Part shown: positions 2,464-47,356 of the stretch, in pieces
Layout: each line of letters begins with the position of its first letter
Numbering within the stretch: the first letter of the stretch is position 1
Assembly (NCBI GenBank): GCA_021927905.1
Contig: BLLK01000075.1
Coordinates: 496,001 to 560,000, forward strand
Length of the DNA: 64,000 nt
From: Chaetoceros tenuissimus
Lineage: Eukaryota; Bacillariophyta; Thalassiosirophyceae; Chaetocerotales; Chaetocerotaceae
Direction of reading: 5' to 3'
Notes under the pieces: model-generated
The model's input: only the letters and a program-made list of their open reading frames with translations
What the model was told of the DNA's origin: nothing
Databases searched by the model: none
Made by a program: the position numbers and the translations under genes

Positions 2464-4254
2464 TTAGCTGGAATTGTCCTGACTTCTTTCTGTCTCGGTT
2501 TTCTCAATTGACATGTAGTCATCTTCGATGAAATCACCTAGAGCAAGTTCAGATTCCTTCGCTATGATTGGATCTAAAAAGCTTAAAAAATTTCCATCGA
2601 CCAAAGTTTCGTCTCTTGAATTTTCTTCTTTCTTTGCAGGTTCCCCTTTTGTGTCCTTGTTTCCAACCAATTTACTCCTTTCTTTGTTCACATAATCTTT
2701 TACGTATTTTTCTTCGCGAATGCCTTCTAGGCATTTTGGACAATGGAAATATTTTGTAGTCCCTTTTCTTTTTGTCAATTCGAAGTCCTTACATTTCCTA
2801 TTGACTCTGATATCCTTTTGTTTGCCTCCGTTCTTACATTCATGGGCTTCAAAGCAGCACATAAATGAGCATCCTTTCTCATCCTTGGGAATTTTGCGTA
2901 CTTCTCTGCAAAAAGTCTTGTTGCAATGTGGACACAATGTAGATTCGTCAGTACATTTTGCAGCAGATCTTTCACGGATTCCTTTGATATCATGATATGA
3001 AGGATTCTTAGCGTTTCCGTATTCGATGAATTGGCAGTTGGCTTCAATACTATGTCCACAACTAAATATATATTTGCCTTTAAATTTGCAATTTGGTCGC
3101 TTTTGCGTAGTTGTGGTCGAATGCGTTGATTCTGAAGTGTCCAAATCCGTCCCATTAGGATGCTGATTCTGTTGCAAGTTACTAGGTGAAAAAGAAACGA
3201 CTGCGGTGTTGCCTCCAGAGGTACTTCTGCTAGAAAAACTTGAGGATATGTCATATTCCGATTCGTACTCCATATCCTCGTCTTGATTTCCTTTTCCAAT
3301 CAATGTATCATGCAAAGATATAGAATGTGCCCTTCTCCTCTTTTGGGCTCTTCTACTTTGCTGGTCTGGGGAAGCCAGAGTGCATTCTTCAAGTACTCCT
3401 ACAAGTCCGGAATGACCGCTACTTGTGGAATCATTTAGTTTGTCTGAGCTATCACTATTATGCCATTTCCTTGATTTATAAATACAAGGGACACCTGTAG
3501 CTACCAAGTCATCGATGCCTTTATCCATTTTCAAACGTTTTAGCCCCTCTGTGTCACTCTTTTCGATCAATGCAAAGCCTCTCAACTCTAAAAACCACAG
3601 AGCTTCTTCAAATGCATCATCGAATTTTAATCCCTCTCCATCTACTAATTGAACTGCTATCGCTTGATAAAAACCTTCGGCAAGAGCGCAAGCCGCCACG
3701 TCATCGATCTCCTCAGACTTCCAAGCAATGATACAGAAATGAGGAAGTAAATCTGCCAATCTATTTCCAATAATTTCTTTTGAATCGCATGCATTCAGAA
3801 AGATACACTCGATATTTGAACGTAACAATTTCTCCACTAAACATTTTGTTCTGGAATTTAGTCTCCGAAGAGTTGAGCCATGGATACCAAAGTGCAATAT
3901 ACGAAAAGTGCTGGATTTGGTAATCTTTGCACAAGTAGCAGGTAAGGAATCAGTGTATTTGACAGCTCGATTTGCTTTTTCCAGATTCTCTTGAATTACA
4001 GTCTTCTCCTCTAACATATGCTGAGATTCTGATGAGCTGATACATTCAAGAACACATTTCTCATAATCAGCCTCTAGACGAACCATCTCATAATCAGCCT
4101 CTAGACGAACAAGAAGTTTTTGCACATTGATTTCAGAAGTAAGCCCTAATTCAGGAAGAACCTTCTCTCTGAATCTACTTTCGTCAACTTGATACATTTT
4201 TGTTAAAGCAGTCACGTTCATATATGGGTCTCTGTCTATCAGTTCAGTTGTCAT
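2464..4254 (-). CDS. CHAT caspase-like protease with cysteine-rich C-terminus (stand-alone form)
   Basis: A 596-residue protein in one exon. Residues 10-45 form a short helical module (VTALTKMYQVDESRFREKVL...ELG) also found just before the CHAT domain of the two giant Roco proteins here. Residues about 115-250 match a CHAT peptidase: ILHFGIHGST carries the likely catalytic His and FLNACDSKE the Cys, followed by the IIAWKSEEIDDVAACALAEG segment (compare W-x-x-D-D-x-A in CHAT). Residues 290-385 are low-complexity Ser/Asn/Gln. Residues about 385-520 hold many paired Cys/His (CPHCNKTFC, CCFEAHEC, HCPKCLEG), probably binding zinc. A 27-bp tandem duplication gives a repeated VRLEADYE. This protein lacks the LRR, ankyrin and Roc-COR parts. 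Function is inferred from family only. It starts 187 bp downstream of the end of the DUF6824-like gene, on the same strand. Confidence 0.72.
   Translation of the reverse strand: MTTELIDRDPYMNVTALTKMYQVDESRFREKVLPELGLTSEINVQKLLVRLEADYEMVRLEADYEKCVLECISSSESQHMLEEKTVIQENLEKANRAVKYTDSLPATCAKITKSSTFRILHFGIHGSTLRRLNSRTKCLVEKLLRSNIECIFLNACDSKEIIGNRLADLLPHFCIIAWKSEEIDDVAACALAEGFYQAIAVQLVDGEGLKFDDAFEEALWFLELRGFALIEKSDTEGLKRLKMDKGIDDLVATGVPCIYKSRKWHNSDSSDKLNDSTSSGHSGLVGVLEECTLASPDQQSRRAQKRRRAHSISLHDTLIGKGNQDEDMEYESEYDISSSFSSRSTSGGNTAVVSFSPSNLQQNQHPNGTDLDTSESTHSTTTTQKRPNCKFKGKYIFSCGHSIEANCQFIEYGNAKNPSYHDIKGIRERSAAKCTDESTLCPHCNKTFCREVRKIPKDEKGCSFMCCFEAHECKNGGKQKDIRVNRKCKDFELTKRKGTTKYFHCPKCLEGIREEKYVKDYVNKERSKLVGNKDTKGEPAKKEENSRDETLVDGNFLSFLDPIIAKESELALGDFIEDDYMSIEKTETERSQDNSS
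4063..4116. repeat. 27-bp tandem duplication inside the CHAT gene
   Basis: Two adjacent copies of a 27-bp unit containing ATCAGCCTCTAGACGAAC give a duplicated VRLEADYE in the protein. The frame is kept. Confidence 0.8.
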
Positions 4255-29700: not shown

Positions 29701-30177
29701 AGGATACATCAGACAATGCTTAATCAGATACGTTCTTTGCTACGCCAAAATCCTCCTAATGATATCAATCAAGCAAATCATGTTATCGATACGCTACTTG
29801 CAAATACCGTCTATGCATTACGAACATCGCTTCACTCTTCATTGAATGCTTCACCAGGAGCTCTTGCATTTCAAAGAGACATGATATTGAATATGCCCTT
29901 CATTGCAGATTTAAATAACATTCGCAATAGAAGACAAGAGATTGTAAACAGAAGCAATGATAGAGAAAATGCAAATAGACTGGATTATAATTATCAAGTA
30001 GGTGATTGGATACTAATTCGCTCCGATGCTCATCAAGTAGTACAAAAGCTCGAAGAACGATGGTTTGGACCCTTCCAAATTACTCAAGTTCATGTAAATG
30101 GAAATGTTACTATTCGTCGTCGACCTGGAGTTGTTGAACGCATTAACATTAGAAGAATTAAACCATATCGTCAATGA
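26740..30177 (+). CDS. pol polyprotein of the gypsy element
   Basis: A single long frame with, in order: aspartic protease (LIDSGSDKTAIV), reverse transcriptase (KLDISMQYY, RLPMGI, YIDDIGIF), RNase H (IYTDSSDYQLGSS, YTDHQN), an integrase zinc finger (H-x-H...CEFC) and an integrase core (AVDLIGPW, IHDKGTEFTG, NPQGNSICERIH). It ends in a GPF module. This order is diagnostic of Ty3/gypsy. Confidence 0.93.
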   Translation: MRDTSTGIMNPALDINDDFWQEPTDCLMLDQESLMWKEYINSPRKYNLREFLFDPTVRVEVNSLQKVDQMKMTNRNPVTLILPKLINGMSDVKLMRGLIDSGSDKTAIVRAALPSGCPLTEIPAESFLGFGGMATIHEKVTLQQVILPEFSRSLQIESFDAVVMDGRSNYDIILGRDFLQKIGLILDFENLQIKWMNMEISMKPARYWNTLENVQIAFAEYTDEADEEPNDGYAAAILPSKYDDVSPDVIAAKQTHLDKEKQQDLEKVLHQFPTLFNGKLKQFKGEEVHLTLKKDAKPVQSKPYKVPFLHRQVFKNELDRLVEEGVMEKAPRSEWVAPTFIIPKKDGRVRWVSDFRELNKNLIRKQYTLPRIHDIFERRNGYKYFTKLDISMQYYTFKLDKASSMLCTIATPFGLYRYLRLPMGILESPDIAQEIMERLLANCDCEVYIDDIGIFSKTWKEHIAKLNKILHILQDANFTINPLKCEWAVQETDWLGHWLTPVGIKPWEKKIKPLLALPKPRTTKEVKSFLGAVNFYKDMWKRRSHLQQPLTELLKKGSFKWGPAQDKAFEQIKALMASDVLLYYPDHNKAFHIYTDSSDYQLGSSIAQYDDDGILHPVAYFSRKLNSAQMNYTVGDKEFLSIFETLRTYRTMLLGAEIHLYTDHQNLTFKNINSQRILRWRMYIEEYGPKLHFIPGETNTLADYFSRVELNQQVMEEKSPGPTTEVVDSYYQDIVNDDWRLAECLLPISDAFINVQENALYPMNFDRIQLAQQRDASLQQLRQQKPQEYVLRQTGQHNLIYHRERIFIPQTYAPRIIRWYHNALNHPGIQKLLNNFNQHFFSPKVIQVVTDVVSNCEFCQRNKTSNVQYGHLPPRNVTMQPWHTVAVDLIGPWKMKIQGIDVEFRALTIVDNDTNLLEAVRIENTRAQHIADLFENTWLSRYPRPVKCIHDKGTEFTGSEFQQMLQRFHIRPSQITTKNPQGNSICERIHQTMLNQIRSLLRQNPPNDINQANHVIDTLLANTVYALRTSLHSSLNASPGALAFQRDMILNMPFIADLNNIRNRRQEIVNRSNDRENANRLDYNYQVGDWILIRSDAHQVVQKLEERWFGPFQITQVHVNGNVTIRRRPGVVERINIRRIKPYRQ

Positions 30178-30210: not shown

Positions 30211-30409
30211 TGCTACGTCACAGACAATAGGCCTTTTACTGATGGCCGTCATTGGCTTGTAGAACTTCGAAGAAGAAAGAATCTCTTTGAATCTAAAATG
30301 AGAAGCCTTTTGACAAATTCGTTCTTTCCTCATCATTGCCTAATGCTTATAAATAAAATAACTCACCAAATCAATCCCATTAACTACAATTGATTCCCTG
30401 GTTGCATCA
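30211..30409 (+). repeat. 3' LTR of the gypsy element
   Basis: Identical by eye to the 5' LTR. It is followed by the GGATA target duplication. Confidence 0.93.
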
Positions 30410-31173: not shown

Positions 31174-34100
31174 TCAGTACAAATCCATTACGCTGCATAC
31201 ATCACACTGTTTGTCTTTGTATCGCTTTGTTCTTGTACAATTTGGCACCTTTATATGATGTTCATATTTCAGGTTGAAACATTTGTGGACATCGAAACAA
31301 GATAAACCATCGTACCTTTGTTCTTTACAGAATATACCTTTGCACAAGCTGCAATAATTTTGGGGAGTTGGAGAAATTTTGTCGAGGAACTGACAATAGC
31401 CGGTTTTGTTTTTCCTTTTACAACCAGAATCAAAGCTGTAGTGATACCTCTGTTGACAATATATTTTGCCCCCCTTTTTAGCTTCTGTGTGGTATTGGAA
31501 TGGTACTAGTTTCCTTGATGTATTCATAAAGCGGTCATATTCCGTTCTGTACCAATTCCATGCCAAATGTATGGCTGCGAGTTTTCCTTTCAATTCAAAA
31601 TAACCATGTATCTGTTCCTCTGTCATTTCAGCTGATCCATGACGAGTAGTTTTTAACGTTCTTTCAAGATTCTCAAATAAAGCTTGCACTGCAGTATTAA
31701 AGTCATGTATCTTTTCGTATGTCCTTGATTCAAGTGCGGCCTTTATAGTACTCACTTCTGCTGGTAAATAGTCATTGAAGTCATGATTTTGTGCAACCAA
31801 ATTATCCATGATAAACTTGCACTTATCTATCCATATCTGCTTTTGGTTTGCTTCGTGACTAGCCTTTGTAAAGTCCTCACCAAACACAATTTTTTTCTCA
31901 GTTTCATTTTGGTTATTAGAAGAAGTCGACACGTTTTGCCCTCCAGGCATGGTTGAATTGTTGCCTGTATCACTTCCTTCGTTATCTGTTGTTAATGCAG
32001 TAGTTGAATTGCTTCCATTCTGATTTCCACTTTGGCTTGAAGTATTATCATCGTCAGCTGTATGATGAGATACAGATCTTTGGATTCCCTGCTCTTGACC
32101 AACAGATCCATTGGTTGTCACTAAGTCAGAAACAGAAAGAGTGTTTTGTGTAGGTGATGTCTGGGTTGCATTTTGGATTTGGTGTTGACTATTTACTTGA
32201 GCCGTTGCAGTACTCTGACCTTCATTTTGGATATGGTGTTCACTATTTATTACATCAGTTGCTGCAGTACTCTGACCTTGACTAGAATCATTATTATCCA
32301 TTTGTGTGTCTCCCATTTCTTCATTCATGATCTCAGTTGCAGTAGAGCAATTTCCATCAATCTTTCTTTTCTTATTTGTATTTTCCTCGCGACTATTTTC
32401 GGGCAACAGCTTTAAAACCCCTGCAATAGTTTGACCTGCACTACATGATTCTTTATTTGGGTCAGCAAAGACAAACTTATGACTTTCCATTAAAAATTTT
32501 GCCTTTTCAAATGCTCTTTTGAATTCAAAGGAGTTCTTTTCATTTGCAAACAAAATTCCATAAAATTCCATGGAAAATCGAATAGCTGCTTCGTTATCCA
32601 CTTCTGAATCCCAATAGATTATATCTTTTTGCGAAAGCGCTTTTGTTACAGTTTCTATTACTTCCTTTGATTGGCAAGAATTTATAACACAGCACTTCGT
32701 TTGGCTCGTGATTGTTTGGTCGCTGAATACTGATTTAAGATTCGCTTCTTCTAGCGTCCCTTTATGCGCGCCGAAATGGAGCAATGTAGAATCATATTTT
32801 TCACAGCATCTATAAATAAGTATCTCACCTTCCCATTCGTCACTTAGGTCGGCAAATTGTGCTGTATACTTGGATGAAGACAGTTTATAGCGAATGAGTT
32901 CCTTCTCCGTCGAAAACTCCTTTTCATCAATGCATGCAATCATGTAGTTCGTTGGTTTCAGAGGAGGCCCAAGTTCTTTGATGGCAGCAGTCACGTTGTT
33001 TTTGTCGAATATATTTACTACCCCTAATTGTGGTAACAAATCCTTCATGAATGACGCCGTATCATTATGATACCATCTTTGCAATGTTGAGGTAGACACA
33101 TCCTCACTGGCCGAGAGCATGGTTTTTGATAGTGTTTTTGCTTTCTCAGTATCCACTTTCTGCTTTAACAAATTTACTAAGTCTTTGTTTTGTTCACACA
33201 AAACAAGATTTTCTTCGAGTGTTTTCTTGAAAGGATCCACATCTTGCATCCGTGTCTCAGATTCTACCCTACTTCGATAGATATGTCTTGCTTCGCCTTC
33301 ATTTTGTAAACGTTGAGGTTCCTTTCCTCTATCTTGTTCTGCAATAACCTCAAACTCAAGATGATCCCCATAAAAGATGGTATTCAGCTTATCAGAAATT
33401 TTTCGAATGTCTTTAACAACCACCTTTTCTTTAAATTCGGAATGACTTGATACAATCAAAATCTTACTAGATGAGTAATCCAGCAATAAAGCAAACATCT
33501 GCCCATTCCCTTCATGCCTAAGGACACATGCAGAGAATAAAATAGTTGGAGTAGGACCATCTTTTACCACCAAAGCATTTACAAGTCTGCAGTAAAAGGG
33601 CACTAGTGCGAACCTCTGCTTCTTCATGTCAATATGTCCTACTAAAATTCGTTCTTCAAGAGTCTCCGACATTTTATTTTTTGATTCAATGTAAGCTGCC
33701 TCTGATGTGATTGTTGGTACTATCGGAACTGTAAAATAGTCACTACTTTTCCCAAATATTCCTATCTTTAGCAACACTTCACTCAAGAAGTCAATGTGAG
33801 CTTTACTCGTCCCTACCCAGAGCTGACGTAACAATGGAATGTCTAAGATACCATGATCCTTTAGTCTATTCCATGAAATACCATTGTTCATTTTAATTGC
33901 ATTTGTGTCACGCAAGAACCAATGATAGCGAAAGTCCCGTACAATATATGTTATCATATCCATCAACCATTGAGGGTCAAGGATACAAAAATCTTGAAGT
34001 GCCTGGACCTGATGAAAGTAAATGAAGTGACCAAGATTATGATATTTTGTCAAGAGATCTCTACAAATGTTTTCATTTTCTATTTTGTCACTCTCAAAGA

Positions 34101-36648
34101 CGCCACAATCCGACATTACTTTCATTACTGATTCCTGGTTTCCCTTTTCATCAATGATAGGTATAATTGGCTGTTTCTGTGAGATCTCGGTAAGTCTATC
34201 CATGGTACGAAGCATTGAGATAGGTACTTCTTGTGATATATCAAATCCTTCATCATTCATGGCAGCATCAAGAATTACCTTTCGCAGCTTGAGTATATTT
34301 TCATCTTCAGAATTGCTGTTGTCGACAGGCCAAAAGCACAAGTTTTGCTGTTGATTATAGAGATGAAGTCTATTGCTCTCGGACTTTCCAGGAGGATTGC
34401 CCAAAGGAACAAGATCAGTGAGCGGGAGCGTTTCGATTAAAATATTATTAAGAGTTTTGAGACCAGTAGCAACATCTCCTTTTAGCTTTTTGAATTCATC
34501 ATAGTGAGTTCCTACAAGTATCACGGGTGGGTACTTGATGGAAGCATCAATGTCTCTATTGTTCTCTTCTTGTACAGATTTATTATCTTTGGTAGCATCG
34601 CTTCCACTCTCTTGGCACGCATCTAGCTTGATTGAAGATACCCAATATTCCAAATGCTCAAGAGCTTCTGCACGAGAACTTTCATCAAATATCTTCATAA
34701 TGTCAAAGACAACGATGAAGATACCTTCTCTTGAAAGAAGTAGATTCTGAATGCAGCGAAACACTCTCTGTCCACCATTGTCGTAGATTGTAAAGCGAAT
34801 AGACTTGCCGTCTTTACTTGTAGCTAAGTCGATATCGTCTACTTTCTTTGCAACATCTTCTTCTGTTCGCAGCACTTGATCTGCTTGCTCTACTTTTCGT
34901 CTTTTTAACAGTAATGAATTACTTTCACTGGTATCATCAGTAGAAGCAGTTACAGGCAGTGAATTACTTTCACTGAAACCATCAGTAGAAGTAGACGCGT
35001 TGTCCGAATTTATATTGTTAGTCTGAACATATTCTCGTTCTCTATTGCCTTTGATTAAATGAGAAGATACAGAGCGAAATCTAGAAGAAGAATCCCTTTC
35101 AGCATCTTCAAATGACACGTCAGAAGCCTCCACGTTTGTGACATGAATACCAATTTCATGCACATTAACTTCGGAAGTTTTGGATCCTTTGGTACTCTCG
35201 CAATAGGGTTGAAATGGTAGTCCCTTGAGTGAATTGATGGTGCATGTTTTACCATCTCGACCTCTTCCAACAACAGTAATGGTGGATCGCATTAATGGCA
35301 CCTTCTCTTTTAAATCATGAAATGATTTGAGTTCTTGGTCCAGAAGTGCTTGATTGTATTCTTTGAAAGAAATTAAATGCTGAGGAGGTATATGCTTATG
35401 TATCTCTTCTTTGTGGATGATGTCGTGAATGTCGGCATATGAAGGTTTGCTTTGAAGTAATTTTTCTAAAATCGCAGTTTCAGCAATACCGTGATCTATT
35501 GTTGATTTGATTGTATTCATATACGTGTGTATAAGTAATGCAGATTGTATTACGTCTGAAGATCTACGTCCTTTGAAAATTGAATCATCATGTAGCAGAG
35601 TATCTGCCAACTCTACTCCACCATTTTTTACAATAAGCTTTTGTATAGTGATATCGCCTACCCAGCAAGCATAATGGAGACAATTCCACCCTTTGTTATC
35701 CTGTACCATTAACAGTTCTTTTCCGCCAAATTGAACCATTTTTTGAATCAGATCAAAATCTGCTGTTTGGTTGCATATCAAGTACATCAACGGTGTCATT
35801 CCACATTCATCTTTTGTAGAGCAATTGAGCTCTCTCAAAATCATTACAGTTCTAGTACTGAATGTTGGATATTCGCTGCAACAGAGATTATGAACAGGAA
35901 AGTTTTTGTGACGATTTTTGATCCAATCTGGATTGCCAAATATTTTCGAACTTGGAATCTCTGCGAGTGGTAAAGTATCTTGTCCAGTCACAGATGCTTT
36001 TACATCGAGAATTTGACTATTATTCTCATTGAAAATTGGTTCCTTCATGGCTGGGATAATTGGTAAGTTCCAAAGATTAGGAGCTTCTTTCGTATTATCA
36101 TCTTGTTGATGATAAGATTCTGTTCGATGAATCAATGCCGTATCTGTAATAACACCTTCTCCAAGTTGAGTGTGTTGAGGAACACTCAAGATGATCAACT
36201 TTTTACACTCATAAAATGCCCATGTACCAATCTCTCTACAGGATGGCGGAATGAATATCGAAGTCAGACATTCACAAAAAGAGAATGCACTTGCTCCAAT
36301 GTACTCGAGATTTGTTGAAAGCTTGACAAACTTGAGACTATAGCATTGAGAGAAAGCATCCGTTTCGATTCTTCTGACAGTATCAGCCATGATGACAGTC
36401 TTGACATTGCCACATTCTTGGAAAGTATGATCAGGAATCACTTCGACTCCAGGCAAGATGATGATGACTTGCCAAGTTTGTCTCTCTTCATCATTGTAGA
36501 TAAGATGCTCCCTATTCTCAACATCCCATAGTTTCTCTCCGTTGTAAAAGAGAGTTCTCTTTCCTCGAAACATGTGAATTCCTCCATCTTTGTACTTCTC
36601 ACTGATTTCTTTCCATTCCTTCTTTGTTAGTTTCCTAAATAGCCTCAT
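31174..36648 (-). CDS. LRR-ankyrin-Roc-COR-CHAT-cysteine-rich giant protein, unit A
   Basis: A single 1824-residue frame. Residues about 25-195 are BspA-type LRRs (EVIPDHTF, LKFVKLSTNLEYIGASAFS, SIFIPPSCREIG), like the small LRR genes here. Residues 265-345 are ankyrin repeats (DECGMTPLMYLICNQ, GWNCLHYACWVGD). Residues about 455-735 form a Roc GTPase: P-loop GRGRDGKT, switch II DNGGQ, base-recognition GTHYD. Residues about 860-1060 form a COR domain (ILDPQWLMDMITYIVRDF, ILDIPLLRQLW). Residues about 1185-1215 repeat the helical module of the gene at 2464. Residues about 1285-1420 form a CHAT protease, with LLHFGAHKG (His) and VINSCQSKE (Cys), then YWDSEVDNEAAIRF. A low-complexity linker and a Cys/His-rich end (CSLCKGIFC, CFDVHKCF) finish the protein. 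It is probably an intracellular sensor with GTP-gated protease output. This is inference from domain order. Confidence 0.85.
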   Translation of the reverse strand: MRLFRKLTKKEWKEISEKYKDGGIHMFRGKRTLFYNGEKLWDVENREHLIYNDEERQTWQVIIILPGVEVIPDHTFQECGNVKTVIMADTVRRIETDAFSQCYSLKFVKLSTNLEYIGASAFSFCECLTSIFIPPSCREIGTWAFYECKKLIILSVPQHTQLGEGVITDTALIHRTESYHQQDDNTKEAPNLWNLPIIPAMKEPIFNENNSQILDVKASVTGQDTLPLAEIPSSKIFGNPDWIKNRHKNFPVHNLCCSEYPTFSTRTVMILRELNCSTKDECGMTPLMYLICNQTADFDLIQKMVQFGGKELLMVQDNKGWNCLHYACWVGDITIQKLIVKNGGVELADTLLHDDSIFKGRRSSDVIQSALLIHTYMNTIKSTIDHGIAETAILEKLLQSKPSYADIHDIIHKEEIHKHIPPQHLISFKEYNQALLDQELKSFHDLKEKVPLMRSTITVVGRGRDGKTCTINSLKGLPFQPYCESTKGSKTSEVNVHEIGIHVTNVEASDVSFEDAERDSSSRFRSVSSHLIKGNREREYVQTNNINSDNASTSTDGFSESNSLPVTASTDDTSESNSLLLKRRKVEQADQVLRTEEDVAKKVDDIDLATSKDGKSIRFTIYDNGGQRVFRCIQNLLLSREGIFIVVFDIMKIFDESSRAEALEHLEYWVSSIKLDACQESGSDATKDNKSVQEENNRDIDASIKYPPVILVGTHYDEFKKLKGDVATGLKTLNNILIETLPLTDLVPLGNPPGKSESNRLHLYNQQQNLCFWPVDNSNSEDENILKLRKVILDAAMNDEGFDISQEVPISMLRTMDRLTEISQKQPIIPIIDEKGNQESVMKVMSDCGVFESDKIENENICRDLLTKYHNLGHFIYFHQVQALQDFCILDPQWLMDMITYIVRDFRYHWFLRDTNAIKMNNGISWNRLKDHGILDIPLLRQLWVGTSKAHIDFLSEVLLKIGIFGKSSDYFTVPIVPTITSEAAYIESKNKMSETLEERILVGHIDMKKQRFALVPFYCRLVNALVVKDGPTPTILFSACVLRHEGNGQMFALLLDYSSSKILIVSSHSEFKEKVVVKDIRKISDKLNTIFYGDHLEFEVIAEQDRGKEPQRLQNEGEARHIYRSRVESETRMQDVDPFKKTLEENLVLCEQNKDLVNLLKQKVDTEKAKTLSKTMLSASEDVSTSTLQRWYHNDTASFMKDLLPQLGVVNIFDKNNVTAAIKELGPPLKPTNYMIACIDEKEFSTEKELIRYKLSSSKYTAQFADLSDEWEGEILIYRCCEKYDSTLLHFGAHKGTLEEANLKSVFSDQTITSQTKCCVINSCQSKEVIETVTKALSQKDIIYWDSEVDNEAAIRFSMEFYGILFANEKNSFEFKRAFEKAKFLMESHKFVFADPNKESCSAGQTIAGVLKLLPENSREENTNKKRKIDGNCSTATEIMNEEMGDTQMDNNDSSQGQSTAATDVINSEHHIQNEGQSTATAQVNSQHQIQNATQTSPTQNTLSVSDLVTTNGSVGQEQGIQRSVSHHTADDDNTSSQSGNQNGSNSTTALTTDNEGSDTGNNSTMPGGQNVSTSSNNQNETEKKIVFGEDFTKASHEANQKQIWIDKCKFIMDNLVAQNHDFNDYLPAEVSTIKAALESRTYEKIHDFNTAVQALFENLERTLKTTRHGSAEMTEEQIHGYFELKGKLAAIHLAWNWYRTEYDRFMNTSRKLVPFQYHTEAKKGGKIYCQQRYHYSFDSGCKRKNKTGYCQFLDKISPTPQNYCSLCKGIFCKEQRYDGLSCFDVHKCFNLKYEHHIKVPNCTRTKRYKDKQCDVCSVMDLY

Positions 36649-37989
36649 ACTGAACTAAGATTAGAAGGAAAAGTGTAACCATGAAGAATGCTTGTATCAA
36701 CGGATCAAGAGCCCTAGTTTTCTAATAAATGGGATCGGCAACGCTGGTTTCACGATTTTTTTTACTGCCGTATTAGATCTACACAAAACCATACGGTGAG
36801 ACTCAATACAATGGGTATTTCTATTGCTGCTGTGTGTGTTTGCTGTTTTTTTTGTTCCTCGTCTCGCGTCGGAAGTTGGAAGCCCGCGTGGTGGAATTAT
36901 GACGTTTCCTTGCCTCTTACGTCATTATTCGACAGAGACTATTTTACTTTGGTTCTGTGGCAACATGAAGAACCATGGTGGAAGCATAATTATATTTCAT
37001 GTCACCATTAATCTTCAAAGTCAATTTTGTCATGGGCTACTTGGATCGAATCTTTCAAACTCTCTCATTGACTAAATACTATTGTGAATGAATGTGTAGT
37101 GAGTAAATAGCCGTTATAAATAAACAAGAATACTTACAAAACTAAATGTCTTCATTTGCATCATCAGCAAAAACAGAAACGAGAATTGTGTACCTTTGAT
37201 ACAAAATGTAAACAGTATTGAAACAAGAGTACATCTGCTTTTCATTCTATAGTCATCTTCATTATAAAGTAGTGTTTTTAAAGGGTGGGAAGAGTTAGAG
37301 AAGGAATGGAATGGGAGAGCGATTTAGATTCAATTGAGAGGACGATGATAGACAGAGTAAAATCTAAAAACCAAACGAACAACCATGCTCATGTGATGTA
37401 CCAAGTGACTTTGAGGAGTGCACGATCATGAGTTCTATTTAGTCAGATAGACACTACAGATAGAATTAATAGCCGATTAATCTATTTCCTCTCTCCATGA
37501 TATTGGCTAGTGGACTACTTCAGACTTCGGCTATGAATGCAGTTTCCAATTCAGATTACCATCATATTGGCATGAAAAGAGTCAAAGCGAAAGATTTTGA
37601 AAAAAGCTTTTAGAGTAAGATTCTGTAGAGATGACAAAGAAGATTTCATTGGAAGCAATTTGAATCTCGAACTTGTTCCATCATCTCCAATGAGAAAGAG
37701 ACAGCAAAGGGTATGAGTGATAAGCGACAAGCATGAAGAGGCAAAAACAGAGAATTATTTTGGGAATACTTCTCTAGTGAAGTTTTCATTGGACAACTCT
37801 TTCTTGATGCACTTGAATTACAGTTGGGATGGTAGTAGATAATGAAGCATAGATGCAAAGTCATGAATCATTGGAAATGTAGAGTTGAAACTAGACTTGA
37901 ACAAAATTGGTTCACTAATAGTCTAGATTGATTGGAAGATGTCATTGAATCAGTCAAGTTTCCGTCCATTTTGAAACTGGTGCTTTATT
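36649..37989. other. upstream region of giant Roco gene A, duplicated at 47357-48680
   Basis: Most of this stretch aligns with 47357-48680 upstream of the unit B gene, including a CAGAGACTATTTT segment at about 36933. An exon-like piece is listed separately. The duplication shows that the block was copied with its promoter. Confidence 0.6.
37520..37710 (+). pseudogene. exon-like fragment, copy A (partner 48208-48405)
   Basis: It reads TSAMNAVSNSDYHHIGMKRV, then KAKD, with the frame shifting, then AFRVRFCRDDKEDFIGSNL and MRKRQQRV. Copy B keeps one frame. I do not recognise the family. Confidence 0.4.
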
Positions 37990-38232
37990 TTGAAATCGGA
38001 TAATATGGAGTGGTTGATGAAAGATTGCAAGGCTGATGGAAAGTATTTTTCAGAAAAGGCAGCCATGGATGCAGCTCGTGACATTGTGCGTTTCACTGCC
38101 TTGGCTCCAGTACATCCATCCAAATGGCGTGTTTACCGTGGACTTCAAAAGGTGAAGAAAGACAAGAGAGATGAAGAAAATTCTGATCATCAAGACTATG
38201 TTATGATTGGAAGAAATGATGTAGAGAATTGA
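37990..38232 (+). pseudogene. 3' fragment of the 49228-type gene, unit B copy
   Basis: It carries AMDAARDIVRFTALAPVHPS, KWRVYRGLQKVKKDKRDEE and DYVMIGRNDVEN, nearly the same as the fragment at 20601-20781. The N-terminal two thirds of the full-length protein at 49228 is absent. It could still be translated from ATG at 38005, but the conserved core of the family is missing. Confidence 0.6.
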
Positions 38233-40650
38233 ACACTTGGAGTGTCATCCATACACGATGGTATTTCCTCTAACTAAAGAAGAGATAAACATAGTGGTAA
38301 TAGTAGCCAAGGCCAAATAAAAGTAAAGTAATCTTTCCAAGTAAAGGAATTTGATTCCGTTTTTAAATAAAATTTGTACTTACTTGTATCATCAAATGAT
38401 CAAAGATTCAATGCTCAGGGATTTTTTGAATAAGCTCTGGATCGGGGCAGTGCTTATCCATCACTGTTAGGCTCGAAACTTATCTGCATACTACTTAGGG
38501 TGATTATGGAATGTATTGAAGACATCAGTTCATCAGTTAATGATATTAAATTTTTATCTACATCTAGCTGAGCACTGCTCAGTATATCAAAGGACATTTC
38601 ATTCTAGTTAGTCCATCCTAAGTTGATACGATAGTAATCGCATCGTAATCATTGTATTGCCATTGAAGTTTGTACTCCGTTTTACCATAACTCACTCAAA
38701 GAATAAAGATAATATTCGTATATGTCATTTTCAGTTGAGTATACTACTGTACAATCATGCTCAATAAAAATTACCTCGTGCCCGAATATCCCACAAAACC
38801 GTCTGGAGCTCTTGGTCTGATGCTCCCATTGAATCTCATCGTATTTGCAAATCGGAATTTAATTTTGGCACCCCAGAAAGTTGTTGGTTCAGAAGACCCT
38901 GACGGAATCCAGCCCTCCTGCGACGGGATCACTACGTCATATCCACCTTCTACTTTGGTGGTTTCAAATTCAAGGAACCCTCCTTTAATGGATATCTTCG
39001 CATCGCCATGAACAGTAAGCGGGCTGAAGTTGTATCCGTAGTCAGTGTTTGTCTTGTAGGTACCGACAAAGGCCTCAAGAGGATTAAGTTGTTCTTCACT
39101 CGAGCTAAGAGTTTCTGCCGCTTCAATCATGGCAGATGCCATTAGATCAAGTCGTTCCAACCATACTGGGTCTTGATTCTGACATACGTTGGCACTCTGG
39201 TACAAACACATGGAATGCAAGTAATAAGTCTCCACCATGGCACCGATCATGAGAGTTGAATAGCTGCCACGGAACCAAAGGACGCGCTCATCATAAGTGG
39301 GGAAGTTTGCTATAGCCCGATCGATGAATGTATCGAGGATGTACTGGTTTGACCGGTCGCCGATGTCATTATCACAAGAGGAACAAGTATTCGAATATAG
39401 AAATCTAAAGATTGTAGAGGGCGCATGGGTGTCCTGACAAGATTTACGAAACGCTTCTTCATAGACAATACGGGTCTCGGGAGTATGGTCGAGGTTCATG
39501 TAGTTCCTGTAGTCATCCATCAGATCCTTCAAGTGGAAGTTGATCCAGTTGTCGAGCTCTTGTTTGGCGAAACCTTCATTGATAACAATGGATAGCTCGT
39601 TGAATCCCTCTTGAATCAAATCTTGGATGTTTCTCAGTTGGCTGTCGATGGAATCAAATCTGTCAAAGACTTCATCGAACAACTCTTTGAACTCCTCTTT
39701 AAACGCCTCTAGGTCAGACCCAGGATCACTACCACTGCCTCCACCAAATAGTGAGGCCATAGTCGAGCCTATAGTGCAAACGTCTGCTAGGGAAGAAAGT
39801 GGACCCTGTTGGGCAGCCTGTCCGGCAACTCTCTTGGCAAATGGGAATTTCTTTGCGCCAAACGAAGCCAGTGTCGTCACTCCTCTCACCAACATGCCAA
39901 AAAGCAATCTGCGATCATCTTTGTTGTTGCTCTGAGGGAGGAGACCACGTTGGTGATGGGAGTCGACATCGGAAAGGTCGGTGTAGTCTACCAGTATTTC
40001 TTGCATATCCTTGAATTCTTCAACAGCCATAGATAAGCCACCTGTGACGTTCACAAGGGCCACACCACAGTTGTCTTCCAAAACGAGAAGAGACTTCTTC
40101 AATGGGTTAATATCATCATCATCATCATCATCATCTTTTGACCCACTGTTCGCCACGAAGATGGCGGTGACAGCAATAGCAGAGATTACTAGGAGGATTC
40201 CAATTCTCTTGTACCAGCGACAGCGTCTGGTCCTATTGTATGAAGGATCAGGCGGAGATGAGGATGCTTTGACTTGTTTTTCCATTATTGCTGATTCAGT
40301 TGAACGGTATGTGATGTATTAGAGCCTTGTTCAAATTGTAGTTAAAGAAAGAATGATATCATCTGAGAGTGCTGTTTGTGATCATTTTCACAGCTTCTCG
40401 TGCCTTGCTTGATCTTGAGTGATTATCCAGGACCATTTTTATCTATGACCATATTTTTTATCTATGACCATAATTCTGACAGCATATTCTTTGAAACGAC
40501 ATTCATATCCCTATGATGATGCAAATATACTTCAAGTATGATCACTCCGACATGGATTGGTCAGTTTGAATTTGAAGAGATTATCTATGACCACTTGTGA
40601 GTCGTCGCCTCGCTCTCATGATCTCTCGCTCCCTCACACGATATCATCAT
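38053..40650. repeat. segmental duplication, copy B (partner 20601-23217)
   Basis: Same order and orientation as copy A: gene fragment, shared 3' flank (CTCTGGATCGGGGCAGTGC), membrane protein gene and its upstream region. Identity is very high through the coding part and lower beyond about 40290. Confidence 0.85.
38771..40285 (-). CDS. type II membrane protein of unknown function, copy B
   Basis: A 504-residue partner of the protein at 21332-22834, with the same basic N-terminus, single membrane span (IGILLVISAIAVTAIFVA) and long outer part. The Asp run after the span is eight residues instead of four, from a GAT/ATC triplet repeat. The last 50 residues differ most (PSQEGWIPSG, FWGAKIKFRF). 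Both copies keep an intact frame with mostly single-residue changes, which suggests both are still under selection or the duplication is young. Confidence 0.75.
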   Translation of the reverse strand: MEKQVKASSSPPDPSYNRTRRCRWYKRIGILLVISAIAVTAIFVANSGSKDDDDDDDDINPLKKSLLVLEDNCGVALVNVTGGLSMAVEEFKDMQEILVDYTDLSDVDSHHQRGLLPQSNNKDDRRLLFGMLVRGVTTLASFGAKKFPFAKRVAGQAAQQGPLSSLADVCTIGSTMASLFGGGSGSDPGSDLEAFKEEFKELFDEVFDRFDSIDSQLRNIQDLIQEGFNELSIVINEGFAKQELDNWINFHLKDLMDDYRNYMNLDHTPETRIVYEEAFRKSCQDTHAPSTIFRFLYSNTCSSCDNDIGDRSNQYILDTFIDRAIANFPTYDERVLWFRGSYSTLMIGAMVETYYLHSMCLYQSANVCQNQDPVWLERLDLMASAMIEAAETLSSSEEQLNPLEAFVGTYKTNTDYGYNFSPLTVHGDAKISIKGGFLEFETTKVEGGYDVVIPSQEGWIPSGSSEPTTFWGAKIKFRFANTMRFNGSIRPRAPDGFVGYSGTR

Positions 40651-41346
40651 GCTGTTGATGCACAGCGCCATAACCATTTTGCGAAGCAACATGAAGGGTC
40701 TGAGATGCTGACGAACTGGCCAAGTCAGCAGATGATAGTCTTTGCTGAGCTGCATTTGGATCTAAAGTATTTTGTTGCAAAGGAGCACTAGTTCGGGTAA
40801 ATTCTTGACTACTATGAGAAGAACCCAGGCCTCCACTACCAGGCTGTGACTCAGTTACTCATTTTTATTAATTTGAAGAAAGGACTAGAGAGATGGATTT
40901 GTTTGCCTTCTCCTTGTGGACGAACAGTTTCTTCTTCTCCTGATGATGAATCTGGTGCTGGCGGGGTTTGTTCTTACTACTTGTTCTCCTTCTCTCTTTT
41001 TCATAGCTGATTGTTCTGAATCAAACGTTTTAGCTGCAAACTCTTTAGGAGAGGGATAAACATACAGCTGTACTCTACACTAGGATCTTTGCGTTCAAGT
41101 AGAATGGAGGAGCAAAATAATAGAGTTGCGATCTCTTTACAGAGTGGTTACATATCTATGCTTGTTTCTTGTTGCAAATACAATGACATGCAAATGTCCT
41201 TATTCCATGACGTCATGTAAACCCACTCCTTAACCGTTTATAATTTCCTCATTCTTCCAATTTTGTTCAATACATTCGCAGCAAAAAGATGAAATCATGA
41301 ATTTAAGTTAAAAGTTATATACATATGCAGAATATTTATGGTAGAA
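40286..41346. other. upstream region of membrane protein B and 3' flank of the DUF6824-like gene
   Basis: No gene seen. A TGACGTCA site lies at 41208-41215. The open frame at 40597-40791 has no family features. Confidence 0.45.
41208..41215. promoter_or_regulatory. CRE-type palindrome TGACGTCA
   Basis: A perfect TGACGTCA with CAATGACATGCAAATGTCCTT just before it. The wording is close to that at 50934-50957 before another such site. Confidence 0.4.
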
Positions 41347-42174
41347 CTAAGCTTCCATATGAGCCAAGTCTTCTAGGATCTCGTTCCACATTTCAATATC
41401 AAAGTTGGTATCCATCATCATGGTAGTAGTATCAATGCGTTCGTTCGCTAGATCTTCCACATCGGATGCAAATAGTTCATCCCAATTTGGATCATGGATG
41501 GCGAATTCCCAATCATTCTCATCCATGTTATTAGATTCATATTCCATCTCATTCTCAGGAGGAGGAAGAGGAATTCCTTCCATATTATTAATCTCGAGAG
41601 GGTTCACAGCGATATTGTTACCAATGTCATTACCTACAACAACTACGTTTTCCTCTGGAATTTCTAGAGGAGGTAGAGGATGGTGAACAACATTAGCACC
41701 AGCTGCATGATTCATTAGAGGAAGAGGATTGTAGTGTACAACATCAGAACCAATAGCAACACTATCTCTCATAGCTTGATTGATCTTCTTCCTAATTTCT
41801 TTAATTGCATCCACGTCGTTCATATCGTATTGGAAATACTGACCTTCTGTAGTATCATGCTTTATCATGATAAAATTATTTTGCTTGAGATCCTCAACCA
41901 TATCTCTGGTAAATGCCGTTTTCATGCCCCTTTCAAGGTCTGGGATGGACCTAAAGCGAGGTGCATTATCAACAATAAACTGTCTATACATTACTTCCCC
42001 AGGTGTTGGATTTCTTTGTAATAAAATAAAATAATCACGTGAGAGATGTTTGAACAGGAAATAGAATGAATCAAATCATTTATGTTCTTACACAAATCCT
42101 CTTCTGAAAGTTACAGAGTCACGATTCTGCTCCCTGAATTGAATGATATCTGGAATTGCTGGATGTATGTACAT
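41347..42174 (-). CDS. DUF6824-like protein, two exons, unit B
   Basis: Exons 42174-42092 and 42013-41347 are joined by a 78-bp phase-2 intron (GTAAGA...CAAAG). The join gives VTFRRGFV-NPTPGEVMYRQF, which continues the domain (TRDMVEDLKQNNFIMIKHDT, QYFQYDMNDVDAIKEIRKKI, NQAMRDS). The start at 42174 (MYIHPAIPDIIQFREQNRDS) is tentative. A TTTTTAG acceptor-like site just upstream (about 42190) could bring in another exon. The C-terminus is Asn/Asp/Glu-rich with short repeats (PLPLMNHAAGA, PEENVVVVGNDIGNNIAVNP) also present in the unit A copy. The 3' end of giant Roco gene B lies only about 250 bp away on the same strand. Confidence 0.66.
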
Positions 42175-42424
42175 GTTCTCGTTATTGGTGATTCTAAAAA
42201 TTAATTTTTTTTTATGAACCATAAGAGTTATGTAGCATGGTGCTATCGTAAAATGTTTTTTGGAATTGTGGAACTAAGGCCTTACCTAAGCCATAGCTAA
42301 GCCTTACCTTTCATACGACTACATCATTTCTTAGTTTTTTAGTTAAATTATCTTCCTGCACGTACGTACTATAGAGATAAGGATATAACGGCTGCATACC
42401 GACATCATTTTTCTAATATTTTCA

Positions 42425-45400
42425 TTATCTGACATCTGTAAAAAATGCATTCTTGTTTTGTTGTTTAGAGATATCATCCATCCATTCATCTGATAGTTTA
42501 AAACTATCCAAATCTTCTTTGCAATCATTGGCTTGAGCGACTGAAGGACTATCCAAAGCTTCTTTGCAATCATTGGATTGACCGACTAAAGCCTCCTTCC
42601 ACTCTTCTACTTCCGCTGTTCTTTTCATTCGCACCTCGGTACATTTCTCGCAATGGTAAAATGTACCACTTTTTGTCTTACTCAGTGTGAAATCTCCACA
42701 TGTTCTGTACAATTCGACTTCAAAATCAACCTCTTTATCTCCTATATCGCAATTGTGGACATCGAAGCAGCTAACAAAAGAAGATCCCGTTGGAATTGTT
42801 TTCTTCGAGCAATAATTTCTTTTGCACTTGTCACAAATAGTTTCTATTGAACGACCGCCTCGATTGCGGATATCTTTGATTTGGTCTAGAGAGCAATTTT
42901 TTTCATTCTTGTATTCAATGAACTTACAATTTGCATTTTGAATTCTGTGTCTACAAGTCGTGAACAAATAGGAGCATCTTAATTTGCAAGTTCCTTTTTT
43001 GCCCTCGATGCATTCACGAGGAGAGTTCGGGACATTCTCACCGGCACTTCGGTTTTGGTTTTCACCCGATAATTCTTGACCATGAGCCATTGGTACAGCA
43101 TCGCCATTCCGGCTTCTTTTCCTTGATGAACTGGTGTTTTCAATATCACTGGAAGAGGTATTGTTACTTTGTCCAAAGGTAGTATTAGTATTTGAGTCCT
43201 TTTTAGCATTCTTTCTATTTCTACCATTAGAATCATTATTTGGAGAGACAATGGATGGGTTCATTCCATATGAGGTTTCAATATCTTTTCCTCCATCATC
43301 GACCATCATAGGAACTTCTCCAGTACCTCCTGAATGAAATTTCAAAATTCCAGCAGACACTTTCCCATCATTCCTGTTTGCATTTTTACCTGGGTCTTCG
43401 AAAACAAAGTTGTGTTGTTTCATACTTTCTTCAGCTTTTCGTAAAGCTTTCTCAAAAGAGATAGGGTTCGCTCGCGTTCCTTCTGCACAATAGTAGCCAT
43501 AGAATTGTTCACAAAATCGTATAGCTGCTTCATGAGTTACACTTGAGTCCCAATATATGATGAATTTGTTCTTAAATTCAGTCTCGGCAATATCTAAAAC
43601 TTTCGCAGATTTGCAGGTGTTTAAGACGAGGCATTCAAACTGATTTTTGCGGTCATCATCTTTCAAAATGCCAATGTATGCAGAGTTTTTTCCCGTAGTT
43701 TTCCCATGTGCACCAAAATGGAGAAATTTGTATCTGCTGGAGCTGTCGAGTAGATTTTTGTTGAAAAATCCTGCATTTGGCTTAAGGACTAGAGCTGCAT
43801 AGTTTGACTGTGCGAGCATGTACTTGATCATGTTCTCTTCTCTATCGAAAATTATTTCTGGTGTCATTTTGAAACCTTCTTCGCTCTCCATACAAGCAAC
43901 CATGATTGTCTCTGATATTATAGAATCTCTGAATCTTGTTTTGATTGCTTCAACTATTTCATCGCGATGTAATAATTTTGTAATTCCAAGTTCATCTTTT
44001 AAAATCTCATCTTTGAACGTTTTTTCATCGTATTTGAAGTAGAAATTTCTTAATGAATATATCGTTACATCTTCATTAGCACCCATCATAGTTTCTGCTA
44101 TAGTTTTTGCAGTTTTTGCTTTAAATTTCAACTTCAGCAATGTCACTAGGTCCGATAGGACTCTCTCATCGTAATCAGTATTTCTTTGATTTTGTTCTTT
44201 GGTTGCAGGAGGATCATTTCGGAAAATATCTTCGGCCCTTTGTAAAGTAGATCGACATATCGCATCAACGTCGACTTTCAAGGCTTCATCAAATTTTGAC
44301 TTGTTCAATTTGAAATCGAGCTGATTCTTGTAAAAGGCGCTATTCAAGTTGAAAGTCTTTTCATGGACTAGAGAAAATATTCGATCTCTCGCAGACTTAT
44401 CACCGTTCGAATATATCAACACTTTCTTCTCTTCATGGTTTAGCCATAACGCAAACATATCAAGCTTTAACTCAAACCTGAAGAAACATGCCGAAGGTAG
44501 AATGACTGGTGGTTCGCGTTTATCATCAACCAGAGAATTCACAAGCCGACTGTAAAAGGGAACTAAAGCAAAACCATGCTTCCCCATTTGTATACTTCCT
44601 ATTTCATTATGATTCGAAAACTTCTCTCGCAAAGATTCATCAGAATTCTCCGATGCCCGTAGTATTGGAATTGTGAAAAAGCCATTGCATTTTCCAAAAA
44701 TCCCAATTTCAATCATTACATTTGTCAAGAACTCAAAATGTTCATCATATCCTAGCCATAATTGTCGTAGTAAAGGCATGTCCAAAATACAATCATCTTT
44801 GAGTCTCTTCCATGACAAACCATTATTCAGTTTAATAGCGCGCTTGTCTCGAGGAAACCAATGATAGGCGAAGTCTCGAATGACATAAGTCATAATATTG
44901 ATCAGCCATTGAGGATCAAGAATACAGTAGTCTTGCAAACCAACCTGATCAAAGAAAATGAAATGCCCAATACTTTGATATTGCTTCATTATTGCTCTAC
45001 AGAGTTCAAGTTTTTGTCGTTCATCATTTATCACATTGTCATATACTCCGCATTCTTCCATTATTTGGAGAACGGAGGGCTCATGTGGATCATTGGAATT
45101 AATTGGAAGTACTGGTACTTCTTCTGACATAGCAGTAAGCTTGTCCATAGCTCGAAGGAAAGAAATTGGCACCTCTTGAGATATGTCAAACCCTGGGTCA
45201 CCCATCGCAGATTCCATCAAAATTGAACGTATTGCTTGTATATTCACATCGTTTGGATCCGAATTGTCAACTGGCCAAAAGCACAAGTTCTGGGCTTCAT
45301 TGTACAGCTGTTGTCTATCAAGCAGTGGGAAGTCGTTTGAGTGATTTGGGATTGGAATAAGACCTGAAAGAGGAAGGTTTACAGCCTGCAGACCTTTATT

Positions 45401-47356
45401 AGTATCTCCTTTGAGCTTAAGGAACTCGTCATAGTGAGTACCAACAAGGATTACAGGAGGATACTTGATAGAAGGATCAGAAGATTCATCAGTGTCAGTT
45501 TTAAAAGCATCCATTTTGATTGAAGATAACCAATATTCCAAATGCTCAAGAGCTTCTTCTCGAGAATTCTCATCGAATATCTTCATGATGTCAAAGACAA
45601 CGATGAATATGCCTTCTCGCGACAATAGTAGATTCTGAATGCTTCGAAACACTCTTTGTCCACCATTGTCGAAGATTGTAAAACGAATGGACTTGCCATC
45701 TTTGCTTGTGGCTAAGTCGATATTGTCTACTTTTGTTGCGATGTCTTCTTCTAATGTAGATTCTTTTCCTATGGAAATGTCAGAATCCAAAGTTTGCCTT
45801 TCAAGACGTTTAGTTATTTCGTCAATACTGCCGGACTCATTTAAAGTAGAAGATTCCAAACTAGAATTTTGGACGACATTAAGATATCTTCGCTCTCTAC
45901 TACTGTTCATTAAATGTGAAGATACAGATCGAAGTGTAGATAATGGATCCCTTTTAGCTTCTTCAAATGCCACGCCCGATGCCTCTACACTTGTGACATG
46001 AATACCAATTTCATGCACATTAACTTCGGAAGTTTTTGATCCTTTTGTACTCTCGCAGTATGGTTGAAACGGAAGTCCTTTGAGTGAGTTGATGGTACAT
46101 GTTTTACCATCTCGACCTCTTCCAACGACTGCAATGGTGGATCGCATCAATGGAACCTTCTCGTGGGTATCATGTAATGATTGGAGTTCTTGATCTAGGA
46201 TTGCCTGATTGTATTCTTTCAAAGAAATTAAATGCTGAGGAGGTATATGATTATGTATCTCTTCTTCGTGGATGATTTCGTGAATGTCGGCATAGGAAGG
46301 TTTGCTTTGAAGTAACTTTTCTAAAATCGCAGTTTCAGCAATACCATGATCTTTCGTTGATTTGATTGTATTCATATACGTGTGTATAAGTAACGCGGAT
46401 TGTATGACATCTGAAGATCTACATTCTTTAAAGTCGAATTCGTCAACTTTGAGTAGAGTATCTGCCAACTCTTGTCCACCTTTTTTTACAAGAAGCTTCT
46501 GTATAGCGATATCGCTGATCCTGCAAGCATAATGGAGACAATTCCATCCATTTTTATCCTCTATCATTAGTAGTTCTTTTCCTCCAAATTGAACGATTTT
46601 TTGAATCAGATCAAAATCTGTTGTATGATTGCAAATTAGATACATGAAGGGTGTACACCCGCACTCATCTTTTGTTAAGCACTTTACTACAGTTTTGGTA
46701 TCGAATGTTGGATGTTCACTACAAGAGAGTTTATGAAGAGGGAGTTCATTATGACGATTCTTGATGTACCTTTCGATATAGGCGTATTTTTTAATGGTTT
46801 TGTTTCCGCTATGATAAAAACATCGACCCAACCATGTGTTACTAATCAATTGTTTACCAAGGAGAGTGTTTTCAGACACATGTAATATCATCAACTTCAA
46901 ACAAGTATCAAATGCCCTACGCCCAATCTCTCTACAAGATGGCGGAATGAATATCGAAGTCAGAGAATTGCAGTCACAGAATGCAAACGCTCCGATGTAT
47001 TCGAGATTTCTCGAGAATTTGACAAACTTGAGACTCATGCAATGATAGAAAGCCCTCTCCTCTATTCTCTTGACAGTATCGGCCATAATCACTGTTTTCA
47101 CATTCTCACAGTAATAGAAAGTATAATTAGGAATCACTTCTACTCCGGGTAGCACGATGATGACTTCCCAAGTTTGCCTCTCTTCTTTATTGTAGATTAG
47201 AGAGAAATCCTCATCAAGTTGCAATTTCTCTCCATTCCAAAAGAGAGTCTTTTTGCCCCGAAAGTCTTCAACCCTCGTCTCTAGTTTCTTACATGCCTCT
47301 TCTAGATCGGCATTCTCACTTTTAGAGAGACCACTAATGGCTGTAGTCAACCTCAT
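42425..47356 (-). CDS. LRR-ankyrin-Roc-COR-CHAT-cysteine-rich giant protein, unit B
   Basis: A single 1643-residue frame, paralogue of the gene at 31174. Residues about 40-190 are LRR_5 repeats (VIPNYTFYYCENVKTVIMAD, SIFIPPSCREIGRRAF). Residues 225-305 are ankyrin (DECGCTPFMYLICNH, GWNCLHYACRISD). The Roc P-loop GRGRDGKT is at about 413, switch II DNGGQ follows, and GTHYDEF is at about 640. The COR part has ILDPQWLINIMTYVIRDF and ILDMPLLRQLW. CHAT carries His in FLHFGAHGK at about 1214 and Cys in LVLNTCKSAKV at about 1248, with YWDSSVTHEAAIRFCEQFY after it. The end (about 1465-1600) has many Cys/His (CDKCKRNYC, CFDVHNC, HCEKC). N-terminal and Roc parts are very close to unit A. The CHAT-to-end half is much more diverged. 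Function is inferred from architecture. Confidence 0.85.
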   Translation of the reverse strand: MRLTTAISGLSKSENADLEEACKKLETRVEDFRGKKTLFWNGEKLQLDEDFSLIYNKEERQTWEVIIVLPGVEVIPNYTFYYCENVKTVIMADTVKRIEERAFYHCMSLKFVKFSRNLEYIGAFAFCDCNSLTSIFIPPSCREIGRRAFDTCLKLMILHVSENTLLGKQLISNTWLGRCFYHSGNKTIKKYAYIERYIKNRHNELPLHKLSCSEHPTFDTKTVVKCLTKDECGCTPFMYLICNHTTDFDLIQKIVQFGGKELLMIEDKNGWNCLHYACRISDIAIQKLLVKKGGQELADTLLKVDEFDFKECRSSDVIQSALLIHTYMNTIKSTKDHGIAETAILEKLLQSKPSYADIHEIIHEEEIHNHIPPQHLISLKEYNQAILDQELQSLHDTHEKVPLMRSTIAVVGRGRDGKTCTINSLKGLPFQPYCESTKGSKTSEVNVHEIGIHVTSVEASGVAFEEAKRDPLSTLRSVSSHLMNSSRERRYLNVVQNSSLESSTLNESGSIDEITKRLERQTLDSDISIGKESTLEEDIATKVDNIDLATSKDGKSIRFTIFDNGGQRVFRSIQNLLLSREGIFIVVFDIMKIFDENSREEALEHLEYWLSSIKMDAFKTDTDESSDPSIKYPPVILVGTHYDEFLKLKGDTNKGLQAVNLPLSGLIPIPNHSNDFPLLDRQQLYNEAQNLCFWPVDNSDPNDVNIQAIRSILMESAMGDPGFDISQEVPISFLRAMDKLTAMSEEVPVLPINSNDPHEPSVLQIMEECGVYDNVINDERQKLELCRAIMKQYQSIGHFIFFDQVGLQDYCILDPQWLINIMTYVIRDFAYHWFPRDKRAIKLNNGLSWKRLKDDCILDMPLLRQLWLGYDEHFEFLTNVMIEIGIFGKCNGFFTIPILRASENSDESLREKFSNHNEIGSIQMGKHGFALVPFYSRLVNSLVDDKREPPVILPSACFFRFELKLDMFALWLNHEEKKVLIYSNGDKSARDRIFSLVHEKTFNLNSAFYKNQLDFKLNKSKFDEALKVDVDAICRSTLQRAEDIFRNDPPATKEQNQRNTDYDERVLSDLVTLLKLKFKAKTAKTIAETMMGANEDVTIYSLRNFYFKYDEKTFKDEILKDELGITKLLHRDEIVEAIKTRFRDSIISETIMVACMESEEGFKMTPEIIFDREENMIKYMLAQSNYAALVLKPNAGFFNKNLLDSSSRYKFLHFGAHGKTTGKNSAYIGILKDDDRKNQFECLVLNTCKSAKVLDIAETEFKNKFIIYWDSSVTHEAAIRFCEQFYGYYCAEGTRANPISFEKALRKAEESMKQHNFVFEDPGKNANRNDGKVSAGILKFHSGGTGEVPMMVDDGGKDIETSYGMNPSIVSPNNDSNGRNRKNAKKDSNTNTTFGQSNNTSSSDIENTSSSRKRSRNGDAVPMAHGQELSGENQNRSAGENVPNSPRECIEGKKGTCKLRCSYLFTTCRHRIQNANCKFIEYKNEKNCSLDQIKDIRNRGGRSIETICDKCKRNYCSKKTIPTGSSFVSCFDVHNCDIGDKEVDFEVELYRTCGDFTLSKTKSGTFYHCEKCTEVRMKRTAEVEEWKEALVGQSNDCKEALDSPSVAQANDCKEDLDSFKLSDEWMDDISKQQNKNAFFTDVR

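Follow-up and report, generated by a model that had tools for sequence, protein, structure and literature searches.

In the Roco proteins LRRK2 and DAPK, a Roc-COR switch is combined with N-terminal repeats, and in SAVED-CHAT proteins the protease is under the control of cyclic oligoadenylate. Csx29 (Craspase) is an RNA-gated TPR-CHAT protease controlled by target RNA, in which a change at the sensor moves the His and Cys within the active CHAT domain to new positions (PMC10028731). Fungi have NLR-CHAT and ANK/TPR/WD40-CHAT receptors, proteases that control gasdermins and gasdermin killing, and a fungal TPR-CHAT protein activates a gasdermin (review PMC12881547). The brown-algal ROCOs are LRR-ROC-COR proteins of stramenopiles that have been proposed as immune receptors; their group 3 ends in a C-terminal peptidase, and diatoms have a few ROCOs (Teng et al. 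2024, PMC11378527).

The 64-kb stretch of Chaetoceros tenuissimus DNA analyzed here (the window) carries two large genes, A and B, in which a sensor, a Roc-COR switch and a CHAT protease domain appear in one predicted chain (Table 1). The order in gene A is LRR_5, ankyrin repeats, Roc, COR, a helical region, CHAT, a disordered linker and a Cys-rich tail; gene B has the same order, and the two proteins are 48% identical across 1442 aligned positions. Chance is ruled out as a source of open frames this long. The initial annotation had placed the two paralogues correctly, without giving the strand, and the motifs it listed (GRGRDGKT, DNGGQ, GTHYD, HFGAH and NSCQS/NTCKS) are all present. Its assignment of a BspA-type LRR, ankyrin repeats, Roc and COR is borne out by Pfam and by profile comparison.

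Table 1. Features of genes A and B and of the third family member, in window coordinates.
Feature	Coordinates	Strand	Residues	Evidence or remark
Gene A	31174..36648	minus	1824 aa	single uninterrupted ORF
A, BspA-type LRR (LRR_5)	36139..36441	minus	70-170	Pfam E 7.9e-21
A, ankyrin repeats	35620..35832	minus	273-343	Pfam Ank_2 E 1.1e-6
A, Roc GTPase	34249..35286	minus	~455-800	Pfam Roc E 6e-9, motifs, hhalign
A, COR-A + COR-B	33349..34104	minus	~849-1100	Pfam COR-A E 3e-9; hhalign through COR-B
A, CHAT	32404..32937	minus	~1238-1415
A, predicted catalytic His	32764-32766	minus	His1295
A, predicted catalytic Cys	32674-32676	minus	Cys1325
A, Cys/His-rich tail	31183..31536	minus		alignment of three tails
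Gene B	42425..47356	minus	1643 aa	single uninterrupted ORF
B, LRR_5	46775..47137	minus	74-194	Pfam E 1.8e-24
B, ankyrin repeats	46478..46675	minus	228-293	Pfam Ank_2 E 1.5e-4, below cut-off
B, Roc GTPase	45152..46147	minus	~404-735	P-loop at 412; Pfam E 4.2e-11
B, COR	44303..45019	minus	~780-1018	Pfam COR-A E 6e-5, below cut-off; hhalign
B, helical region, COR-CHAT interval	43922..44179	minus		helices in predicted model; weak SAM-like similarity
B, CHAT	43337..43909	minus	~1150-1340	AlphaFold models, fold searches, hhalign
B, predicted catalytic His	43706-43708	minus	His1217
B, predicted catalytic Cys	43613-43615	minus	Cys1248
B, Cys/His-rich tail	42617..43018	minus		alignment of three tails
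Third family member	2464..4254	minus	596 aa	helical region, CHAT (His125, Cys156), Cys-rich tail

Each of the described systems matches A and B in part. LRRK2 and DAPK share the Roc-COR switch and the N-terminal repeats, but a kinase domain replaces the protease. In SAVED-CHAT (8tl0, the best structural match of the window CHAT domain) and Csx29, a sensor domain governs the protease, as would be the case here, but control does not pass through a Roc GTPase. The fungal proteins likewise combine sensor repeats and a CHAT protease in one eukaryotic chain, whereas their switch, if any, is an NLR NTPase, and neither a BspA-type LRR nor a Cys-rich tail is mentioned for them (PMC12881547). The brown-algal ROCOs have the LRR-ROC-COR arrangement and, in group 3, a C-terminal peptidase, but that peptidase is IPR009003 rather than CHAT, the genes have many exons, and ankyrin repeats and a Cys-rich tail are unreported (PMC11378527).

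The nucleotide switch of A and B is predicted to be of the Roco class. Roc scores above the Pfam cut-off in both proteins and is directly followed by COR, with COR-A above the cut-off in A and below it in B. In gene A, the P-loop lies at residue 461, the G3 motif DNGGQ at 623 and the G4 motif GTHYD at 713. A Roc-COR profile of the window proteins matches 79 bacterial Roco proteins with 98.9% probability (hhalign, E 1e-17) from G3 onward in Roc through the entire COR-A/COR-B, and the P-loop with the TKG segment that follows it aligns as a second collinear piece, weak individually, ahead of an insertion of ~120 residues. Because the P-loop aligns collinearly in front of this insertion, we read the Roc domain as complete, with a long G1-G3 insertion. 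Pfam found no NB-ARC or NACHT NTPase in A or B, which places them outside the NLR/STAND proteins; they would work like these, with Roc as the switch. Nor did Pfam match a protein kinase domain, as expected of LRRK/DAPK Roco kinases, or the C-terminal peptidase IPR009003 of brown-algal ROCO group 3, which we take to be of the trypsin-like superfamily; the C-terminal domain of A and B is instead CHAT.

The assignment of this C-terminal domain rests on profile and fold comparisons, which did call CHAT, whereas Pfam, NCBIfam and PADLOC gave no CHAT match above cut-off. The Pfam CHAT model PF12770 stayed under its cut-off in all three window proteins (genes A and B and a third gene described below), reaching E 0.047 in one of the three. 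When a profile of the three window domains was compared with 177,635 PDB sequences, the top match was the SAVED-CHAT protein 8tl0, with the Cys motif aligned (E 0.038). A tblastn search of 72,556 plasmids with the third gene returned mostly cyanobacterial CHAT proteins (best E 3e-4) with the His-Cys region aligned. By hhalign, the window domains matched eight plasmid-derived CHAT proteins at 98.6% (E 1e-15; column-shuffled controls ≤1.1%) and 51 bacterial CHAT domains at 98.8% (E 5e-17; controls ≤2.6%), and the three window proteins taken singly scored 94.5, 91.9 and 98.6%. With a profile of bacterial CHAT domains only, the three window ORFs ranked 1-3 of 671 frames (E 2e-11, 3e-7 and 2e-3; next 0.83). 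The bacterial relatives were gathered with the third gene as query, so for that gene the tblastn, hhalign and ranking results lack full independence, which they have for A and B. The putative catalytic His and Cys, each of which follows a predicted strand, are invariant in 54 sequences (the three window proteins, which are the only eukaryotic ones, and 51 bacterial relatives), and other invariant columns include an F-Y pair of the helix after the Cys.

Predicted structures point the same way. An AlphaFold model built from window sequences only (pLDDT 59) matched 8tl0 best (Z 9.0), followed by separase (7.6) and caspase-6 (7.2); it had no Foldseek match under 0.001, and we relied on it only together with a second look and a deeper model. 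The latter, which includes bacterial CHAT rows and partly inherits their fold, reached pLDDT 76 and pTM 0.77 and matched 8tl0 and caspase-6 both by Foldseek (E 5e-8 and 2e-4) and by VIA-align (Z 13.8 and 13.6). Thus, the models predict the caspase-like fold of clan CD, and the convergence of sequence comparison and modeling confirms the C-terminal domain of A, B and the third gene as a predicted CHAT domain. The initial annotation had proposed a CHAT-like protease with its His and Cys in place; a caspase-like fold is predicted, and the His and Cys are conserved in the wider family.

The third family member was absent from that annotation. LRR, ankyrin repeats, Roc and COR are all missing from it, and because it carries the helical region, CHAT and the tail alone, these three appear to form a module that travels with or without the receptor half. 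The helical region may be a SAM domain, with weak SAM_1 scores (E 0.29 and 0.033) and no sequence match in the PDB. The Cys/His-rich end noted initially is borne out by the alignment of the three tails, in which 10 Cys and 1 His are invariant. Neither Pfam nor a sequence search of the PDB returned a match for the tail, which is probably zinc-binding. PADLOC anti-phage defense models had zero matches among A, B and the third gene.

Other genes surround the family. A 2.3-kb segmental duplication (20567-22841 and 38017-40292, 94.5% identical), the second copy of which lies between A and B, carries a gene for a protein of ~505 aa whose N-terminal part includes a hydrophobic, membrane-like segment; neither Pfam nor the PDB gave a match for this protein, which is a possible candidate partner or substrate. 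The third CHAT gene and both copies of the membrane-like gene have similar-looking ORFs upstream (4441-5307, 23881-24759 and 41347-41991, all minus), and one of these has a weak match to DUF6824 (E 2.4e-4, below cut-off), a faint pointer to a diatom. Stand-alone LRR_5 genes related to the A and B N termini are found at 1004-1894 (plus), 51318-51998 (plus) and 66-548 (minus), one of them running off the window edge. A Ty3/gypsy-type retrotransposon polyprotein with protease, reverse transcriptase, RNase H and integrase (26740-30177, plus) is flanked by 199-bp direct repeats (25181-25379 and 30211-30409); because these are identical, the element is probably a recent insertion. Farther along are a 1581-aa ORF with DUF6729 and a 3'-5' exonuclease domain (54750-59495, plus) and three tandem related ORFs (59809-63978, plus), two with a MYND finger match. 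MYND, Notch and C-type lectin domains occur in the neighborhood of A and B and, like the Ty3/gypsy-type element, support a eukaryotic source.

Comparison of A with B gives dN under dS over the whole domain region, including CHAT (dN 0.54-0.71, dS 2.7-3.3). Such values show purifying selection and thus argue for working genes. Synonymous divergence is uneven, with dS of 0.34-0.50 in the ankyrin repeats and first part of Roc and of 2-3 in COR and CHAT (Fisher p 2e-9 at fourfold-degenerate sites). These strong differences along the gene rule out plain duplication as the full history of the pair; A and B are mosaics, whose front halves were recently exchanged or converted and whose effector halves diverged long ago.

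A related plan exists in bacteria. Roc-COR genes were gathered from 386 cyanobacterial and 199 planctomycete genomes, with phyla inferred from locus titles, and 3 of 82 bacterial Roc-COR ORFs have a C-terminal CHAT domain. All three are cyanobacterial (L144:2656-7194, minus; L130:2610-5426, minus; L184:2814-6026, plus), and their LRR, Roc, COR-A, COR-B and CHAT domains all score above the Pfam cut-off. Of 70 bacterial post-COR regions, at least 20 contain TIR and three contain CHAT, so bacteria do have an LRR-Roc-COR-effector plan in which the effector is CHAT or TIR. At three further cyanobacterial loci (L140, L134 and L151), CHAT ORFs occur close to Roc-COR genes but are not fused to them. 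Roc-COR thus recurs with an LRR sensor on one side and an immune-type effector on the other. Like A and B, the cyanobacterial proteins combine LRR, Roc, COR-A/B and a C-terminal CHAT domain with His and Cys motifs. They differ in having canonical LRRs, no ankyrin match, no Roc insertion as large and no Cys-rich tail after CHAT, and their Roc and CHAT sequences are far diverged from those of A and B. Relatives of the whole proteins were found neither in viral contigs nor, by whole-protein alignment, in bacterial or archaeal genomes, and plasmids yielded none of the Roc-COR region, so nothing marks the contig as viral or bacterial.

According to the initial annotation, no described eukaryotic family is known to have this full order. 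We found no description of an LRR-ankyrin-Roc-COR-CHAT-Cys-rich order in the open-access literature, and within that scope the eukaryotic architecture appears undescribed. Since cyanobacteria share the core LRR-Roc-COR-CHAT order, however, the window proteins are a eukaryotic variant of it rather than a wholly new order.

With a probability of about 0.6, we propose that A and B are Roco-class intracellular receptors that carry their own CHAT protease and use a GTP switch to permit its action in defense or regulated cell death. A ligand or partner would be recognized by the LRR and ankyrin repeats; the Roc GTPase and its COR partner would form a nucleotide-driven switch under GTP control; the switched Roc-COR would free or bring together the C-terminal CHAT, a Cys protease of the caspase/separase type; and CHAT would cleave cellular proteins, setting off either a defense response or a regulated death of the cell. 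The likeliest task of the Cys-rich tail is to assist in positioning the protease or its substrate. This proposal draws on the domain order, the kept nucleotide-binding motifs and His-Cys pair, the predicted caspase-like fold, purifying selection and the parallel bacterial LRR-Roc-COR-CHAT/TIR architectures. The initial annotation had likewise suggested that ligand sensing would release the protease by way of the Roc switch, a scheme that the cyanobacterial LRR-Roc-COR-CHAT and Roc-COR-TIR proteins make more plausible. Csx29, the fungal CHAT receptors and the brown-algal ROCOs are precedents from which, by analogy, we infer the activity and role of A and B.

Defense is one among several uses of CHAT and Roco proteins. 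A Roco-gated protease could instead serve ordinary physiology, such as a separase-like role in the cell cycle or wound, nutrient or stress signaling; separase is among the structural relatives of CHAT (Z 7.2-7.6), and brown-algal ROCOs respond to several stresses (PMC11378527). We consider this unlikely, as a small family in one neighborhood, with sensor repeats and mosaic, diverging sequences, looks more receptor-like than housekeeping, and bacterial Rocos carry TIR and CHAT effectors. Less probable still is that CHAT is a scaffold or pseudo-protease and that the protein acts by assembly (oligomerization) or through its Cys-rich tail. The sequence is divergent, gene A has HFGAHK in place of the usual HxxHG motif and so lacks the Gly after the His, and Csx29, a bacterial protein, also holds an inactive CHAT1 domain (PMC10028731); yet the His and Cys are invariant from the window to the bacterial relatives and are under purifying selection. 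That A and B are duplicated remnants from a region rich in repeats and transposons, their domain order without functional meaning, is very improbable despite the Ty3/gypsy-type element and many duplications in the window, given two open frames of >1600 codons, dN below dS throughout the domain region and invariant active sites.

The ways in which unicellular algae detect infection and set off caspase-like death are poorly understood, and a piece still missing is a receptor that unites recognition, switch and executioner; A and B offer a concrete candidate gene family with a defined predicted active site. A bolder and more tentative reading, which we hold possible but short of even odds, is that this alga has a one-protein equivalent of sensor, inflammasome and caspase, with CHAT gated not by a STAND ATPase but by a Roc GTPase, on a plan common to the defense-type Rocos of cyanobacteria; A and B would then found a new class of receptor for cell death or immunity in eukaryotes. 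The Roc-COR switch, of which the Parkinson kinase LRRK2 is the main known example, stands in the middle of sensor-effector proteins both in bacteria, with CHAT or TIR, and in a eukaryote, and this mid-chain position in both suggests that an immune-type role of Roco proteins is old.
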